Source: a virus. Taken from it: a stretch of 35,282 bases of DNA. Positions 8,491 to 14,724 of the stretch are shown here, in pieces. Under the pieces are notes generated by a model, which did not search any database, had not been told where the DNA came from, and saw only the letters and a list, made by a program, of their open reading frames with translations. How positions within the stretch are numbered: position 1 is the stretch's first letter; the number at the start of each line of letters is the position of its first letter. Made by a program: the position numbers and the translations under genes. The stretch lies in IMG/VR virus record IMGVR_UViG_3300021519_000028, positions 1 through 35,282 of that record; one strand, written 5' to 3'.

Positions 8491-11199
8491 TTACGCAACA
8501 GCTCTATACATTTTATCCGTATTGCTACCAACTGTTTTCATAACACTGATCATGGTATCAAATCTGTCTATCAGCTCGTCCATCCCGGGAATACGGCCAT
8601 TTGTCAGTGGGGTGACCAATTCTGATCTGCCGCCTTCACCAATGGTTGCATTTAATCCGTCGCTGGACGGACTTACTATACCACCCAAGGCCATTGCTTC
8701 GCCGTGTATATGTGGACCGGACCAGCCGGAACTTTTGCTATTAATTTCATCTTTACTGTTTGTAAATCCCATTGCACTCATAGTCTGAAGAAATTCCTTC
8801 CCATATGTGGGATCGCCTTGTATTCTAGTCATTAGCGCCTCAGGAGGTGTCCAATCCATTGCTTGCCCACGTGGATGGGCTCCTGACGTATGCGCGGTAT
8901 CGTTAAATGCATTAAACCTGCCGCCCGGATAACGTGCGTTTAATCTTTTAGCGGCCTCAATGATTCTATCATTTGCGGCGCCACCAGCAATAGCCTCACC
9001 CGGGTATTTACCCTGTATATTAAGTCCCGCGTATCTTGCAGAATCATCGGGTCCTCGATTAATCATGCCCATGCCCGTTACCGGACCACCCATGGCTCCA
9101 CCACCAGGCCCATATTTGTCCGAAAAGTAACTCGCGGCTCCTGTGAATGCGCCGCCAACGTAACCGGCCCCAGACCCGGCAAGTACGCCGGCGGGGCCGT
9201 ATACGGATCCAAACCTGGCGCCGGACGGTGCGGCACTCATTCCCCCTTCGTGCATCCGTGCTAATAGGCCTGGACCCTGATCTTCCTTATCTTCCTTATC
9301 TTTATTAGTTTTATCTAATATCCCAAGAGATTTATTCACCGCTGCAATAACAGCCTCCATTTGTTTTGCAACTGTTGAATGCAATTCGTTTTGCTTGATC
9401 ATATGGGTAGTAAATAGTACAAGTTGTGGCAGCATCCTGCCTGTCAGCTCCGCACTGGTTTTCTGCCGCAGTTCTTCCAATTTGGCCAAGTTGGCATCTA
9501 CTTTTGCTTTGTTTGCGGCAGCAGCGGCTGCGTCAGTTGCACCACTGTCAATTTGGTCTTTAACTGTTTTTAAGCTAAACGCAATTAACTCATTACCGCC
9601 TTTCATAAGAGCTTGTAACGTCCCATTGCTTCCTAATAATGCGGCTGTAGTTTGTGCTATCCCCTGAGCTGATGTAGCAAAGTCTATCTGTGCGAGAGAG
9701 GATCTTCGGGCACCCTCCGCCGCCTCAGCCGTGGCGTCTTTATCGTTTTTATTTTTATCTCTGAGAATACCGACCGAACCGTCTACCATCCGCTGAAACT
9801 CTGAATTTTGTTCGTATAAGATTCTTGCTTCTTTGTTAACAATAGTTCCGGTCTGCGCCATTTCGAGATAAGCCATCTCGGCAACTGATCCCATTTGTTT
9901 AAAAACTACAAGTTGTGCCGCTTGTTTTGCTTGTACCTCTGCCATTGATTGGTTCGTGTCTTTTGAAATTTCTGCGGCCTTGGCAATAAATCCAGCTTCC
10001 ATTGTTTTTAACTGTGCTTCTTGTAATGCTTTTTTAGCATTACCATCTGTGATACCGTTTAATATTTTTAAATTTTTTCCTAAATCCAGTGTTGCTTTTG
10101 CTATCTCAATATCGCTATTGATACGCTTATCTCCAGTGGCTCTCATACGTTCCGTAACTAGTGCAGATAACTCAACTTGTTCCGAAACGCTGTATCCTAA
10201 CTTGGTTAGCCCTTCCCCAAGCTCGTTGCCTCTAAGAGCTTTTTGTATTGATGCTAATTTTTTTATCGCGGCGTCGCTGGTATACCCCATCCTGTTAACA
10301 CTTTGACCAGCGGCCTTTACGCCATCAGCAAAATCTTTTATATCAATTCCAGATTCAGCGGTCATGTTGCTTAAACCAGTCATACCTTGTGCAAGTGTAG
10401 CACCAGTTGACGTGATAGTTTTGAATGCCGTTTGTGTTTTGTTTAACTGTGCATTTAGTATTTCTAACCCTTTTACTGCAAGATCGGCGGCTTTTACCGC
10501 TATTTTGTCCAGGGCAGCACCCGTAATACCTATAATAGGGCCTAGCCACCTGAATGCTTTCAATGTCGCACCCATCGGAGTCGGTAGTAACGACAATATA
10601 GTCATCACACCGCCAAATATTTCTATTATTTTCGCTATCCCCGATCCAAACTCTCCAGTGGCCTTGGCGGTACTGACCATTGTACTAGTATATAGATCGT
10701 TAGCAGATTTGTTATTAATTATACCGTTGGTGTATTCTAAACCAATATCCACTATCTTCATTGCCAGCGTACCAAAAGCAGAGACAGTACCACCAATCAC
10801 TGTTGATAGCAACGACATCCGCATTGCGGCCGCCGCCTTAAGCTTCATGTCTTCATTATGTTTTATAGTATTAAGGGCAGATTTCTGTGCCTTATCTTTT
10901 TCAGTCCCTGCCTCCATGGCATTTGACTTTACGAGAGCTTCTTTAGCTCGTTCAATTTCTTTCTGGAAACGATCAATTGCCGGAGCAAGAGTTTGATCAA
11001 ACGCAGGGCCTGTGCCTTTTATAGTATCAGTAAGCGATTTCCATGCCGGTTGAGCTTTTTTTAATCCGGAGACAAAATTCTCCATTTCTCTTTTTAGGTC
11101 TCTTCCCTGTTGCTCTAAGTCAATGGGCCCGCCGCTGCCGCCGGCACCGCCGCCACGGCGAATCGCTTCCGCTAGCTTTTCATAATCAATATCAGCCAT
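8491..11199 (-). CDS. Tail tape-measure-type protein with C-terminal M15-like peptidase motif
   Basis: A 902-residue, mostly helical, Ala/Lys/Glu-rich protein. After a Gly-rich N terminus and coiled-coil segment (about 30-130) come two hydrophobic stretches (about 132-160 and 190-240), as in tape-measure proteins that enter the host membrane. The C terminus carries GGIVS...IGEGGRSELVTPL (about 839-865), the GGxV/GEGGPE-VxPL pattern at the end of many tape-measure proteins. Just before it, HPRGQAMD (His775, Asp782) and GPHIHGE (His830, His832) form an HxxGxAxD...HxH zinc motif like M15-type peptidoglycan peptidases. It would set tail length and open the wall on injection; this is the functional counterpart of T4 gp29 (590 residues), which has no such domain to my knowledge. 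An exact TATAAATA promoter lies upstream. Confidence 0.8.
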   Translation of the reverse strand: MADIDYEKLAEAIRRGGGAGGSGGPIDLEQQGRDLKREMENFVSGLKKAQPAWKSLTDTIKGTGPAFDQTLAPAIDRFQKEIERAKEALVKSNAMEAGTEKDKAQKSALNTIKHNEDMKLKAAAAMRMSLLSTVIGGTVSAFGTLAMKIVDIGLEYTNGIINNKSANDLYTSTMVSTAKATGEFGSGIAKIIEIFGGVMTILSLLPTPMGATLKAFRWLGPIIGITGAALDKIAVKAADLAVKGLEILNAQLNKTQTAFKTITSTGATLAQGMTGLSNMTAESGIDIKDFADGVKAAGQSVNRMGYTSDAAIKKLASIQKALRGNELGEGLTKLGYSVSEQVELSALVTERMRATGDKRINSDIEIAKATLDLGKNLKILNGITDGNAKKALQEAQLKTMEAGFIAKAAEISKDTNQSMAEVQAKQAAQLVVFKQMGSVAEMAYLEMAQTGTIVNKEARILYEQNSEFQRMVDGSVGILRDKNKNDKDATAEAAEGARRSSLAQIDFATSAQGIAQTTAALLGSNGTLQALMKGGNELIAFSLKTVKDQIDSGATDAAAAAANKAKVDANLAKLEELRQKTSAELTGRMLPQLVLFTTHMIKQNELHSTVAKQMEAVIAAVNKSLGILDKTNKDKEDKEDQGPGLLARMHEGGMSAAPSGARFGSVYGPAGVLAGSGAGYVGGAFTGAASYFSDKYGPGGGAMGGPVTGMGMINRGPDDSARYAGLNIQGKYPGEAIAGGAANDRIIEAAKRLNARYPGGRFNAFNDTAHTSGAHPRGQAMDWTPPEALMTRIQGDPTYGKEFLQTMSAMGFTNSKDEINSKSSGWSGPHIHGEAMALGGIVSPSSDGLNATIGEGGRSELVTPLTNGRIPGMDELIDRFDTMISVMKTVGSNTDKMYRAVA

Positions 11200-12135: not shown

Positions 12136-12350
12136 CATTAGACAATGAAAATATTGTTGAGATGCTGGACACACTCGACAAAGAGTCAAGAGCCATAAAA
12201 TCCGAAGCCCTAAAAATGTCTTGGTTTATGAGGGGAGGGTTGCCATACGAAGATGCGATGTGCTTGAGTAGTCAAGAAAGAGAAATAGTCGGAGAGATAG
12301 TTAAAGATCACATGCAGCAAACAAAAGAATCGGGTCTGCCCTTTTTCTAA
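12132..12350 (+). CDS. Small downstream ORF, possible frameshift extension of gp26
   Basis: Seventy-two residues if started at TTG 12132, which overlaps the gp26 stop in TTGA. The only in-frame ATG nearby is codon 11. The sequence is helical and charged, with EALKMSWFMRGGLPYEDAMC in the middle and ESGLPFF at the end, a pattern I associate with the small gene that follows gp26 in T4-like phages of marine type. It lacks a good ribosome-binding site of its own. Two readings are possible: a coupled separate chaperone, or the C-terminal part of a gp26 fusion made by -1 slippage at 12114-12120, like lambda gpG and gpGT. It could be the functional counterpart of T4 gp51, but that is inference. Function: tail assembly, probably as a tape-measure or hub chaperone. 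Confidence 0.8.
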   Translation: MTLDNENIVEMLDTLDKESRAIKSEALKMSWFMRGGLPYEDAMCLSSQEREIVGEIVKDHMQQTKESGLPFF

Positions 12351-12415
12351 TCAAAAATACTATATAGTGAGTTTGCTATATATATGATCCTGGAAAAAAC
12401 ATAATACTATACTAC

Positions 12416-12438
12416 TTAGGTGGTGATACTACACCTAA
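12416..12438 (+). repeat. Inverted repeat TTAGGTG / CACCTAA overlapping a promoter
   Basis: A perfect seven-base inverted repeat (12416-12422 and 12432-12438) separated by nine bases. It lacks a T run, so it is a poor intrinsic terminator. Its right arm overlaps the CTAAATA promoter-like motif at 12435-12441, which would suit a protein-binding operator, though it might also protect the 3' end of the gp26 transcript. Confidence 0.5.
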
Positions 12439-12441
12439 ATA
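12435..12441 (+). promoter_or_regulatory. Late-promoter-like CTAAATA with 5'-leader hairpin
   Basis: CTAAATA 43 bp before the ATG of the small membrane protein gene. The predicted start (about 12447) falls at the base of a hairpin, CCAATA-GAAG-TATTGG (12447-12462), followed by a strong AAAGGAG (12470-12476). A stem-loop at the very 5' end followed by a strong ribosome-binding site is the pattern of a stable, highly translated late message. Confidence 0.5.
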
Positions 12442-12483
12442 ATTTACCAATAGAAGTATTGGCATTTTAAAGGAGTATTAACA

Positions 12484-12717
12484 ATGGAGATTCTCGACAC
12501 AATTAAGAAGTGGGCTGCTGCCCTAGCAGATGTGGGAGTAAGTATTATCGCTCTTGCTATTGTAATGGAAGTTTTATTTAAGGGAGTAGCAATTCCTTTC
12601 TTCCCAGCTGTATCGGTTACTGCAAATGTTACTGCAATCGTGGCATCGATTGGTGCACAAGGCCTTGTGGGCTTGGTTGCTGTCTGGGTGCTTTATAGCA
12701 TCTGGAAAAACAAATAA
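12484..12717 (+). CDS. Small two-helix membrane protein, holin-like
   Basis: A 77-residue protein with two hydrophobic segments: about residues 13-38 (LADVGVSIIALAIVMEVLFK core) and about 48-72 (VTAIVASIGAQGLVGLVAVW core), joined by a short loop with Pro residues, and a basic C terminus (WKNK). It begins with an amphipathic MEILDTIKKWAA. Size, two helices and charged tail fit a class II holin, but no dedicated lysis gene is adjacent, so a virion or membrane-remodelling role is equally possible. It has the strongest ribosome-binding site of this block (AAAGGAG, eight bases from the ATG) and its own promoter and leader hairpin, implying abundant late expression. Downstream is the long ORF-less structured region. 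Confidence 0.8.
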   Translation: MEILDTIKKWAAALADVGVSIIALAIVMEVLFKGVAIPFFPAVSVTANVTAIVASIGAQGLVGLVAVWVLYSIWKNK

Positions 12718-12753
12718 TCAATCTGTTAATCTAATATAAGAGGAATATTTCAT

Positions 12754-12768
12754 TCGTATAATATACGA
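12754..12768 (+). repeat. Short AT-rich inverted repeat after the membrane protein gene
   Basis: TCGTAT-AAT-ATACGA, a perfect six-base-pair hairpin 37 bp after the stop at 12717, followed on the plus strand by a T-rich but interrupted stretch. It might be a weak terminator. The same bases contain TATAAT, so a sigma-70-like -10 element is an alternative, but no matching -35 box is visible. Confidence 0.35.
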
Positions 12769-12784
12769 TTGTTATATTCTTCTT

Positions 12785-13220
12785 TCCATGTCTAGACTTA
12801 CTTCGTAAGTCTATTGATTTCGCTATCGCTCATCAATCTGTTTTTAATTGTTTTTGCTTGTAATAGTTTCATCCAGATTTTTTGGTCACTCTTTGCCCGT
12901 ACTGGGCAAAGTTAGCTTCATCCGAGTTACCTCAGCCACTTAGCGTTACAACAATTACAGAGGCGGTTGTCCGGTACCTCGAGTTGTGTCTTTATACAAC
13001 GGCGGCTCACAATATATACGCTAACATACTTGTGAACGTGTAGCATCACTGCTACGTCTTTTAGCCTTTAATTTTTTCAAACAATCAAACCGCGGCAATT
13101 AGCGATCTTCGTCCGATTAAGGATAGTGATTGAGTGCTCTTTACAGCAAAGAGTCTTCCGTCCCTGTGACCCTGGGTCCAGTTTTCGTGGGCATCCGTGA
13201 TTAGCCGATGCAAGCCTATA
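12785..13220 (+). ncRNA. Candidate large structured non-coding RNA
   Basis: The gap 12718-13265 has no credible ORF on either strand but is filled with self-complementary segments and looks less AT-rich than its flanks. Helices found by eye, in order: 12793-12801/12805-12813 (9 bp); 12814-12818/12832-12836; 12891-12898/12904-12911 (8 bp); a long-range helix 12940-12946/13018-13024 enclosing two arms, 12960-12966/12971-12980 (with a GTA bulge) and 12983-12989/12994-13000; 13038-13044/13051-13057; 13082-13087/13127-13132; 13136-13142/13148-13154; 13164-13181; 13191-13195/13207-13211. A loop sequence GTCCGG (12969-12974) also complements CCGGAC (13241-13246). Three arms contain G-U pairs on the plus strand that would be A-C mismatches on the minus strand, favouring a plus-strand RNA, but an exact TATAAATA at 13274-13281 points leftward into the region. 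No tRNA T-arm motif is present. Family not identified; ends approximate. Confidence 0.5.
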
Positions 13221-13265
13221 TACTGTGTTTGTGTTACGAGCCGGACTTGGTGTCAGAAGTGATTG

Positions 13266-13694
13266 TTAAAACTTATTTATAATGTGAGAGCCATGGATTC
13301 TACAGGCTATTTGACCATTGTAGTAATTGTCTGATTCTAATACTTTTCTTTCAAACTGTGTCCTAGCTTCTACATAACTGCATTCTGCTTTGCTTTTGCA
13401 GTAGTATAGTATTTCTCTGGTAAACTTGTCAACACCCAGTGTTTCCACGTCTTTGATCAATTCTACGTTGGATCCATAATATGTTTGCCAATCTGAATCT
13501 ACTTTGCTTCGAATTTTCTTGCGTTTTTTCTTACCGTTTTTTAACTTTACTACCTTATACGACGTTTTACTAAATTTTGATAATTTTTTTCCAACATATT
13601 TCCTACCAGATATTGTATTAACTATAATATAAACAAAACCTATACAGTCTTCGGGTAGAATTTCTACTGGGATATTTTTGTGTAGCCATGTCAT
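13266..13694 (-). CDS. GIY-YIG family nuclease
   Basis: A 142-residue protein with the GIY-YIG nuclease fold signature near the N terminus: GFVYIIVNTISGRKYVGKK (about 19-37), where the two Tyr strands and following Gly-Lys are the catalytic module. The middle is very Lys/Arg-rich (about 47-65), typical of DNA binding, and the C-terminal YVEARTQFERKVL provides the likely catalytic Glu. The end, with YNGQIACRIHGSH, is typical of a small GIY-YIG group found free-standing in T4-like phages. It may be a homing endonuclease related to T4 seg genes or a phage enzyme; there is no long DNA-binding C-terminal domain. It is the last gene of the minus-strand block, 19 bp after the radical-SAM gene, and borders the ORF-less region. 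Confidence 0.85.
   Translation of the reverse strand: MTWLHKNIPVEILPEDCIGFVYIIVNTISGRKYVGKKLSKFSKTSYKVVKLKNGKKKRKKIRSKVDSDWQTYYGSNVELIKDVETLGVDKFTREILYYCKSKAECSYVEARTQFERKVLESDNYYNGQIACRIHGSHIINKF
13274..13281 (-). promoter_or_regulatory. Exact TATAAATA inside the end of the nuclease gene
   Basis: TATTTATA on the plus strand gives TATAAATA on the minus strand within the last codons of the GIY-YIG gene. If active, transcription would start at about 13268 and run leftward through the ORF-less region. A perfect eight-base match in AT-rich DNA is expected a few times by chance in 35 kb, so position is the main argument. Confidence 0.4.
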
Positions 13695-13713
13695 GCATAG
13701 TAGTTATCTCTAT

Positions 13714-14724
13714 TTACCAGGTGGTGGCATATTCTTGATTTACCACAGCCGTATTACACTTGGTCTTGCATTCTTGCCATCTAAAAGTTTTAAGTTCAGT
13801 TTTCCAAAATGGGTCAACAAGAACTTGTTCTAAATTACGAGTCCGTAGACTAAACTTTTTGGCTAATTCTTGCCATTCTGAATTATGCGTATATCTATTT
13901 GCAACCCAACAACACGGAAATAATCTCCCTTGGGCATCTATATATAATCCTTTGTTACCAATTTCACATAACGGTATAATTTCTTTGTGGTCTTTTACTT
14001 TGTTATATAATATAGTATTAACCACATTAAACCTAACGATTTTTGCTATTTTAGACAAATTTTTTGTAATTCTTTCAAATCTATGGGTACCGCTTATAAA
14101 TTTAGTACTTGGCTGTAGTGGATCATCAATTCCGTAAATTGGATATATACTTCCAAACTTGGTAGACTTGGTAATTTGAAAAACATCCATTCCCAAATTA
14201 GATGCTTGTTGTTCCATGTTGGCCAAATGATCTTGGTTGAACTTAAATGCGATAGCTGCCCATGTCATGCGACATGTAGAATATTTACGTACAGTTTCAA
14301 TCCCATCAATAATACTATTGTAGTCACTGTTTACTCGATATAGATTATTACTTTCATTATTAAATCCGTCAATACTAAAATGTATGCTATCTACGCTGGT
14401 TAAGGTCTGTCCAAGCTCTTCCCACCAGGATACTTTTTTATGAGATCCGTTGGTAATAATAACAATTTCAACCGGCTTGATATTTTTAATATATTGTATA
14501 ACTGCAATTAAGTCGTGTGCATATATAGGATCACCATCATCACCGCAGAACGTAATCTTCTCTACATTGGCTTTAATAAACTCTGGAGTAAAATTACGCC
14601 TAAAAAATTCTAAATCTAATTCGGTGTTTACTAGGCTGTTGGGCACTTCTTGGCGAGCACATCGAGGACATCGCAATGTACATTTGCTACTAATTTCAAT
14701 ATGAAAATGCCATGTTGCTAACAT
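13714..14724 (-). CDS. Radical SAM protein with SPASM-like C terminus
   Basis: A 336-residue radical S-adenosylmethionine enzyme. The Fe-S cluster motif CTLRCPRC gives Cys15, Cys19 and Cys22 (C-x3-C-x2-C). FCGDDGDP (59-66) stands at the GGEP-type SAM-binding position and HFSIDG (115-120) is a typical barrel strand. The C terminus has additional cysteines, PLCEIGNKGLYIDAQG then FPCCW (Cys253, Cys271, Cys272) and ECKTKC (Cys319, Cys323), resembling SPASM or twitch auxiliary-cluster regions found in peptide- and protein-modifying enzymes. The substrate is unknown; no obvious precursor peptide gene is adjacent. It follows gp46 by 9 bp with AAGGTG before its ATG, so it is made with the recombination genes. 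All cluster residues appear intact, so it is probably active. Confidence 0.92.
   Translation of the reverse strand: MLATWHFHIEISSKCTLRCPRCARQEVPNSLVNTELDLEFFRRNFTPEFIKANVEKITFCGDDGDPIYAHDLIAVIQYIKNIKPVEIVIITNGSHKKVSWWEELGQTLTSVDSIHFSIDGFNNESNNLYRVNSDYNSIIDGIETVRKYSTCRMTWAAIAFKFNQDHLANMEQQASNLGMDVFQITKSTKFGSIYPIYGIDDPLQPSTKFISGTHRFERITKNLSKIAKIVRFNVVNTILYNKVKDHKEIIPLCEIGNKGLYIDAQGRLFPCCWVANRYTHNSEWQELAKKFSLRTRNLEQVLVDPFWKTELKTFRWQECKTKCNTAVVNQEYATTW

Follow-up and report, generated by a model that had tools for sequence, protein, structure and literature searches.

The window analysed here, a stretch of 35,282 nucleotides (virus record IMGVR_UViG_3300021519_000028), comes from an uncultured T4-like phage, of which it is a 35-kb fragment, and it encodes a T4-type portal protein (PF07230), a T4_baseplate protein and homologues of SbcC and SbcD. 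Between a SegE-like GIY-YIG endonuclease gene and a convergent gene for a 77-aa protein (Table 1) lie 548 bases, positions 12718-13265, in which no ORF of at least 60 aa was found, in agreement with the original prediction. The 77-aa protein has no family match. Two other genes of the window deserve mention. A radical SAM gene (13714-14724, minus strand) lies in the recombination operon, and relatives carry similar genes of varying identity in the same slot. A 902-aa ORF (8491-11199, minus strand) adjoins the portal gene and matches nothing in Pfam or PHROG.

The ORF-less region had been proposed to encode a large, ornate phage RNA, a proposal that is now supported by folding, by covariation and by an Rfam match to part of the region. 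The folding z-score was -3.6 for the plus strand and -4.9 for the minus strand, and none of 100 dinucleotide shuffles folded as well on either strand. Since both strands fold better than their shuffled versions, energy alone does not choose the strand. However, a cmscan search of Rfam placed RF01718 (Polynucleobacter-1) on the minus strand at 13216-13079 (model positions 1-141, 113.1 bits, E 5e-24), and the covarying helices, when read on that strand, hold 178 G.U cells versus 24 A.C cells. This asymmetry fixes the minus strand as the RNA, and the earlier choice of the plus strand has to be reversed. As to the family, which had been left open between a known class and a new one, the 5' third is identified as RF01718 (113 bits versus the gathering score of 37 bits, used here as cut-off), and the remainder is absent from Rfam. 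It is therefore well supported by these comparisons that the minus strand encodes a structured RNA of about 420 nt, of which RF01718 is only the 5' third. The segments 12718-12794 and 13217-13265 are variable flanks outside the RNA.

Table 1. Features of the RNA and of its two neighbouring genes (positions in the window)
Feature	Position	Strand	Evidence or remark
SegE-like GIY-YIG endonuclease gene, 142 aa	13266..13694	-	Pfam PF19835, E 3e-29; stop codon just 5' of the RNA
Whole structured RNA, about 420 nt	12795..13216	-	Covariation from column 9 (13215) to column 437 (12795), 68 divergent homologues
5' domain, RF01718 Polynucleobacter-1	13079..13216	-	cmscan, full model
Closing helix of the RF01718 multiloop, 13128-13132/13082-13086	13082..13132	-	Covarying columns 90-94/137-141
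Arm hairpin, 13035-13030/13007-13012 and 13028-13026/13015-13017	13007..13035	-	Compensatory changes in 9/9 pairs
Long-range pseudoknot helix, 13024-13018/12946-12940	12940..13024	-	7/7 pairs compensatory; 96.8% of cells paired
Loop contact, GTTGT 13000-12996/ACAAC 12970-12966	12966..13000	-	3/5 pairs compensatory; 99.1% of cells paired
Helix around the invariant hairpin, 12987-12983/12948-12952	12948..12987	-	5/5 pairs compensatory; 94.7% of cells paired
Most conserved motif, GGTACCGGACAACCGCCTCTG; hairpin 12980-12977/12960-12963	12958..12978	-	Stem invariant; seed pattern in at least 120 viral contigs
Heptamer copy 1, GGATGAA, after ACTC	12917..12923	-	Equal to copy 2 in 91/94 RNAs
Hairpin CTTTGCCC/GGGCAAAG, between the heptamers	12891..12911	-	Conserved, partly covarying
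Heptamer copy 2, GGATGAA, after ATCT	12868..12874	-	Equal to copy 1 in 91/94 RNAs
3' hairpin around GAGCG..AGCG	12816..12834	-	Covarying columns 399-405/410-417
3'-terminal hairpin	12795..12811	-	Covarying columns 421-426/432-437
77-aa gene, convergent, bordering the RNA region	12484..12717	+	ORF; 288 relatives in viral contigs

The 2010 listing of RF01718 (Weinberg et al. 2010, PMC2864571) classes it as a probable RNA with a probable cis-regulatory role and gives Burkholderiales and fresh water or estuaries as its sources. Until now it was known just as a 141-nt motif without an assigned role, and in the open-access papers searched the Polynucleobacter-1 family is named in that paper only. 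The RNA described here has the same helices, and its 5' third matches the entire model, but the full RNA is about three times longer and its 3' domain occurs more widely than RF01718 does. The label 'probably cis-regulatory' does not fit the phage context. A cis-regulatory element of this kind would lie upstream of a gene, whereas the gene that follows the RNA on its 3' side lies on the opposite strand in the window and, across loci, on the same strand in 70 cases versus 71 on the opposite one.

Covariation was measured with block alignments and APC-corrected mutual information over 94 loci that share less than about 85% identity, and the covarying helices span 13215 to 12795. In addition, a tool-made alignment of 68 sequences (A1) scored 38 pairs in six helices, all of them in the 3' domain and among them the long-range pseudoknot and the loop contact of Table 1. 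Paired cells amounted to 92.6% versus 79.2 +/- 0.4% after shuffling and double-change cells to 368 versus 112, with a covariation score of 0.444 versus 0.186 for shuffled alignments (0/500) and at most 0.122 for slid partners; slid partners keep the relatedness of the sequences, shuffles do not. The tree and the information measures rest on alignments of our own making. Two predicted hairpins (12793-12813 and 12891-12911) and two predicted helices (12940-12946 with 13018-13024 and 13082-13087 with 13127-13132) are present and backed by covariation in the homologues. A further predicted loop contact, GTCCGG/CCGGAC (12969-12974 with 13241-13246), has to be abandoned: the segment 13217-13265 is missing or unconserved in relatives, and 12966-12970 pairs with 12996-13000 instead. 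The homologues show that the RNA folds into a conserved pseudoknotted structure, composed of a 5' domain (RF01718 or a replacement) and of a 3' domain shared more widely.

The distribution of the RNA was followed by two routes. First, the search with the 77-aa protein (p77), which has the relatives counted in Table 1, gave 80 viral loci. The same intergenic region, with RF01718 above the cut-off, was found in 11 of 50 relatives, and in the alignment of these 11 loci conservation and clear compensatory changes extend far beyond the 3' end of the Rfam model. Second, the pattern of the 3' motif (12978-12958, minus strand) retrieved the viral contigs counted in Table 1, among them contigs of 262-345 kb; RF01718 scored above the cut-off in 41 of 50 records with the motif. 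The 3' motif played no part in finding the p77 relatives, so the linkage of RF01718 with the 3' part is not a search artefact. The survey passes over copies more diverged than the seed pattern, and the contigs are mostly incomplete. A covariance model of the 3' domain (R1), built solely from RF01718-type RNAs, detects the RNA in more than 30 loci without an RF01718 match, mostly at rough E-values of 1e-6 to 1e-11, and it matched neither the relatives lacking the region nor seven cultured-phage loci with SegE homologues. Hence the 3' domain is the part held in common, and the 5' domain is either replaceable or strongly diverged. A separate family for the Group 2 RNAs was rejected, as R1 unites them with the rest. 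Among cultured phages (INPHARED), the DNA search gave no real match, its four hits being 27-bp chance matches, and p77 had no match either. The pattern search of 84,980 prokaryote genomes gave 27 hits; the single real one lies on a 4.5-kb contig from a Bacteroidetes MAG (R1 E 8e-35) and is probably a misbinned phage. Judged from these searches, the RNA is essentially restricted to phages and widespread in uncultured freshwater and giant phages. Jumbo phages may carry several copies: a 302-kb phage (G076) has two and a 327-kb phage (G130) four.

Several of the contigs examined have other unusual features. In the 327-kb phage, about eight small tandem paralogous proteins (EIAPK..W..A..YCFALNIDGKTGWRLPT) are encoded beside one RNA copy (L285:271-2397, plus strand), and a terminase-like ORF is interrupted by what is, by eye, an intein-like stretch (L286:648-2267, plus strand). 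One RNA-carrying phage contig holds an ARAGORN tRNA with a CTA anticodon (Pyl; a possible amber suppressor; L119:5169-5243, plus strand). In L192, the ORF of a highly repetitive acidic protein (DDDTNGDDDDYQLSF repeats) lies upstream of the RNA and ends about 1188 nt before its conserved GGTAC motif. A permuted tmRNA (RF04321, 107 bits; alpha_tmRNA, 102 bits; L068:377-571, plus strand) is present on a viral contig with a relative of the 77-aa protein.

We then considered what the genomic context implies. The nearest upstream ORF is on the RNA strand in 133 of the 138 loci that have one, and in most loci its stop codon lies 0-22 nt ahead of the 5' stem of the RNA. In 125 loci the closest upstream genes include a SegE-like GIY-YIG gene, which lies directly upstream in most loci; in nine they include a gene for a 167-175-aa protein that resembles a PD-(D/E)XK nuclease by eye. 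A strong sigma-70-like promoter match (TTGACA-18-TATACT, 11/12; 13432-13403, minus strand) lies within segE, some 190 nt ahead of the RNA, and is possibly its promoter. The position directly behind a nuclease gene, like a 3' UTR, counts against a stand-alone RNA, and together with the terminal hairpins it would suit a cis element that stabilises or ends the mRNA of the nuclease operon. We nevertheless find such a 3' UTR or terminator quite unlikely, because the structure far exceeds what a terminator needs, the upstream genes vary (GIY-YIG, PD-(D/E)XK-like and others), copies are dispersed in jumbo phages, and the identity of the twin segments described below would serve nothing in a terminator. 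Indeed, RNA copies also adjoin unrelated genes, and nuclease-free neighbourhoods were seen in L112, around the G076 copy at 165 kb and around three of the G130 copies. According to these dispersed copies beside varied genes, the RNA is an autonomous unit rather than a fixed part of a nuclease cassette.

The same neighbourhood raises the question of an OMEGA-like guide or scaffold RNA for the adjacent nuclease, with the variable heptamers, set on a constant scaffold, as guides. Like HEARO and OMEGA RNAs, the RNA described here is structured and adjoins a small nuclease gene whose stop codon abuts it, and SegE and RNA co-occur at the locus (35 with both, 34 with neither, two with RNA only, none with SegE only). 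However, this co-occurrence is confounded by relatedness, the nuclease fold differs between loci, SegE homologues of cultured phages come without the RNA, and the heptamers show too little variety for guides. The neighbour is a GIY-YIG protein and not IscB or TnpB, and a long guide is lacking. Moreover, a partner nuclease would be obligate in such a system, whereas the copies listed above persist without a nuclease neighbour. A role as nuclease guide is therefore very improbable.

The most distinctive property of the RNA is a pair of heptamers. They follow constant flanks, ACTC and ATCT, and lie 46-74 nt apart in 94 RNAs. The two copies are identical in all but three of these RNAs, with 16 distinct matched sequences, and at least two of these three deviate only slightly: L109 contains an insertion, the true pair being AGATGAA twice, and L130 differs at one base. 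When the heptamers were located by their flanks alone, as an unbiased control, 75 of 76 pairs were identical and the other differed at one base. A tree drawn from the remaining parts of the RNA requires at least 27 heptamer changes, which affect both copies. Paralogues follow the same rule: the two RNAs of G076 carry GCATGAA twice and AGATGAA twice, respectively, and in G130 three copies have CGCAG twice and one TGCAG twice (read by eye). Comparison of the homologues shows that the heptamers are identical within each RNA and different between RNAs. We know of no other RNA family with a covariation rule of identical rather than complementary segments. The flanks CTC and TCT never homogenise, which argues against gene conversion and for selection. 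These unhomogenised flanks also speak against recombination between repeats, and thus against a DNA-level element, an origin or recombination site that merely resembles an RNA. A hairpin flanked by direct repeats next to recombination genes might suggest such a site, but we regard it as extremely improbable, given the excess of G.U over A.C on one strand and the pseudoknots built by compensatory changes.

What, then, might the heptamers contact? Inside the RNA, no complement covaries with them beyond background. Their complement is neither enriched in the flanking DNA nor in excess in whole phage contigs, and none of the homologous phage sites has a complement that varies along with the heptamer. 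The idea that the heptamer acts as a seed on phage mRNAs was rejected, with three sites observed at start codons and five expected (86 gene families, 17 phages). In the absence of a covarying or enriched phage complement, a nucleic-acid partner from the phage is not supported. Display of the heptamer in a loop closed by a -3/+7 pair received no support from folding. Single-sequence folding pairs GGAU with AUCU, and this fails for variants like GCATAAT, whose two copies still match each other. The main rival to an outside partner, since paralogues in one phage keep separate pairs, is that the heptamers serve the architecture or assembly of the RNA itself, be it by alternating on a shared strand, by same-sequence contacts or by contacts within a homo-oligomer like the GOLLD and ROOL cages; an outside partner would then not be needed. 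An intramolecular rule predicts just the differing, internally matched pairs of the G076 and G130 paralogues, the searches detected no external phage partner, and GOLLD and ROOL form RNA-only cages (PMC12286853). Against this, no third RNA strand covaries with the heptamers, identical strands form no Watson-Crick pairs, and the predicted GGAU/AUCU pairing does not hold across variants. We consider an architectural role unlikely.

The reading we prefer, with a probability of about one half, is that of a stand-alone non-coding phage RNA that acts in trans and binds, through its twin segments, two copies of a single RNA-specific partner. The minus-strand RNA, starting right after the last stop codon, would be made as the tail of an early/recombination operon (SbcC/D, radical SAM and GIY-YIG genes) or from a promoter within that operon. 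It would then act in trans, as RNA or RNP; we infer both its autonomy and its trans action from the dispersed copies. The twin segments may, with less certainty than the trans action, bind two copies of a partner specific to each RNA; candidates would be a dimeric protein or a nucleic acid of the host, RNA or DNA. The RNA, its strand and the identity rule are established by sequence and covariation, and the binding role is a proposal. More speculatively, the RNA could represent a new functional class, a conserved scaffold displaying a programmable, strictly duplicated 7-nt recognition sequence, with a matched pair of its own in each RNA copy, even among paralogues of one phage; the pair would hold two copies of an RNA-specific target or make a same-sequence contact without precedent. 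This broader idea is possible but doubtful.

The original prediction had pointed to GOLLD and ROOL as possible relatives. Neither these nor any other Rfam family besides RF01718 matches the window at gathering, nor does one match up to E 5 in 12300-13700, and they are rejected. Many GOLLD members exceed 800 nt and often lie near tRNA islands, whereas the RNA described here is about half as long and away from tRNA islands, with no tRNA gene in the window or in 48 of 50 loci; the twin heptamers also set it apart from GOLLD. It resembles ROOL in being a large pseudoknotted phage RNA without a known partner, but ROOL, too, is often near tRNA islands, its covariance model gives no match here, and our RNA comes from uncultured T4-like and jumbo phages. 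The cages of GOLLD and ROOL are homo-oligomers made of RNA only. As far as these tools reach, the full-length RNA, its distribution in phages and the twin-heptamer rule are new. Altogether, a role-less 141-nt Rfam motif proves to be one end of a large RNA common in uncultured freshwater and giant phages, with heptamers that covary as identical and not as complementary sequences. Together with GOLLD and ROOL, this makes three kinds of large ornate phage RNA that can be compared.
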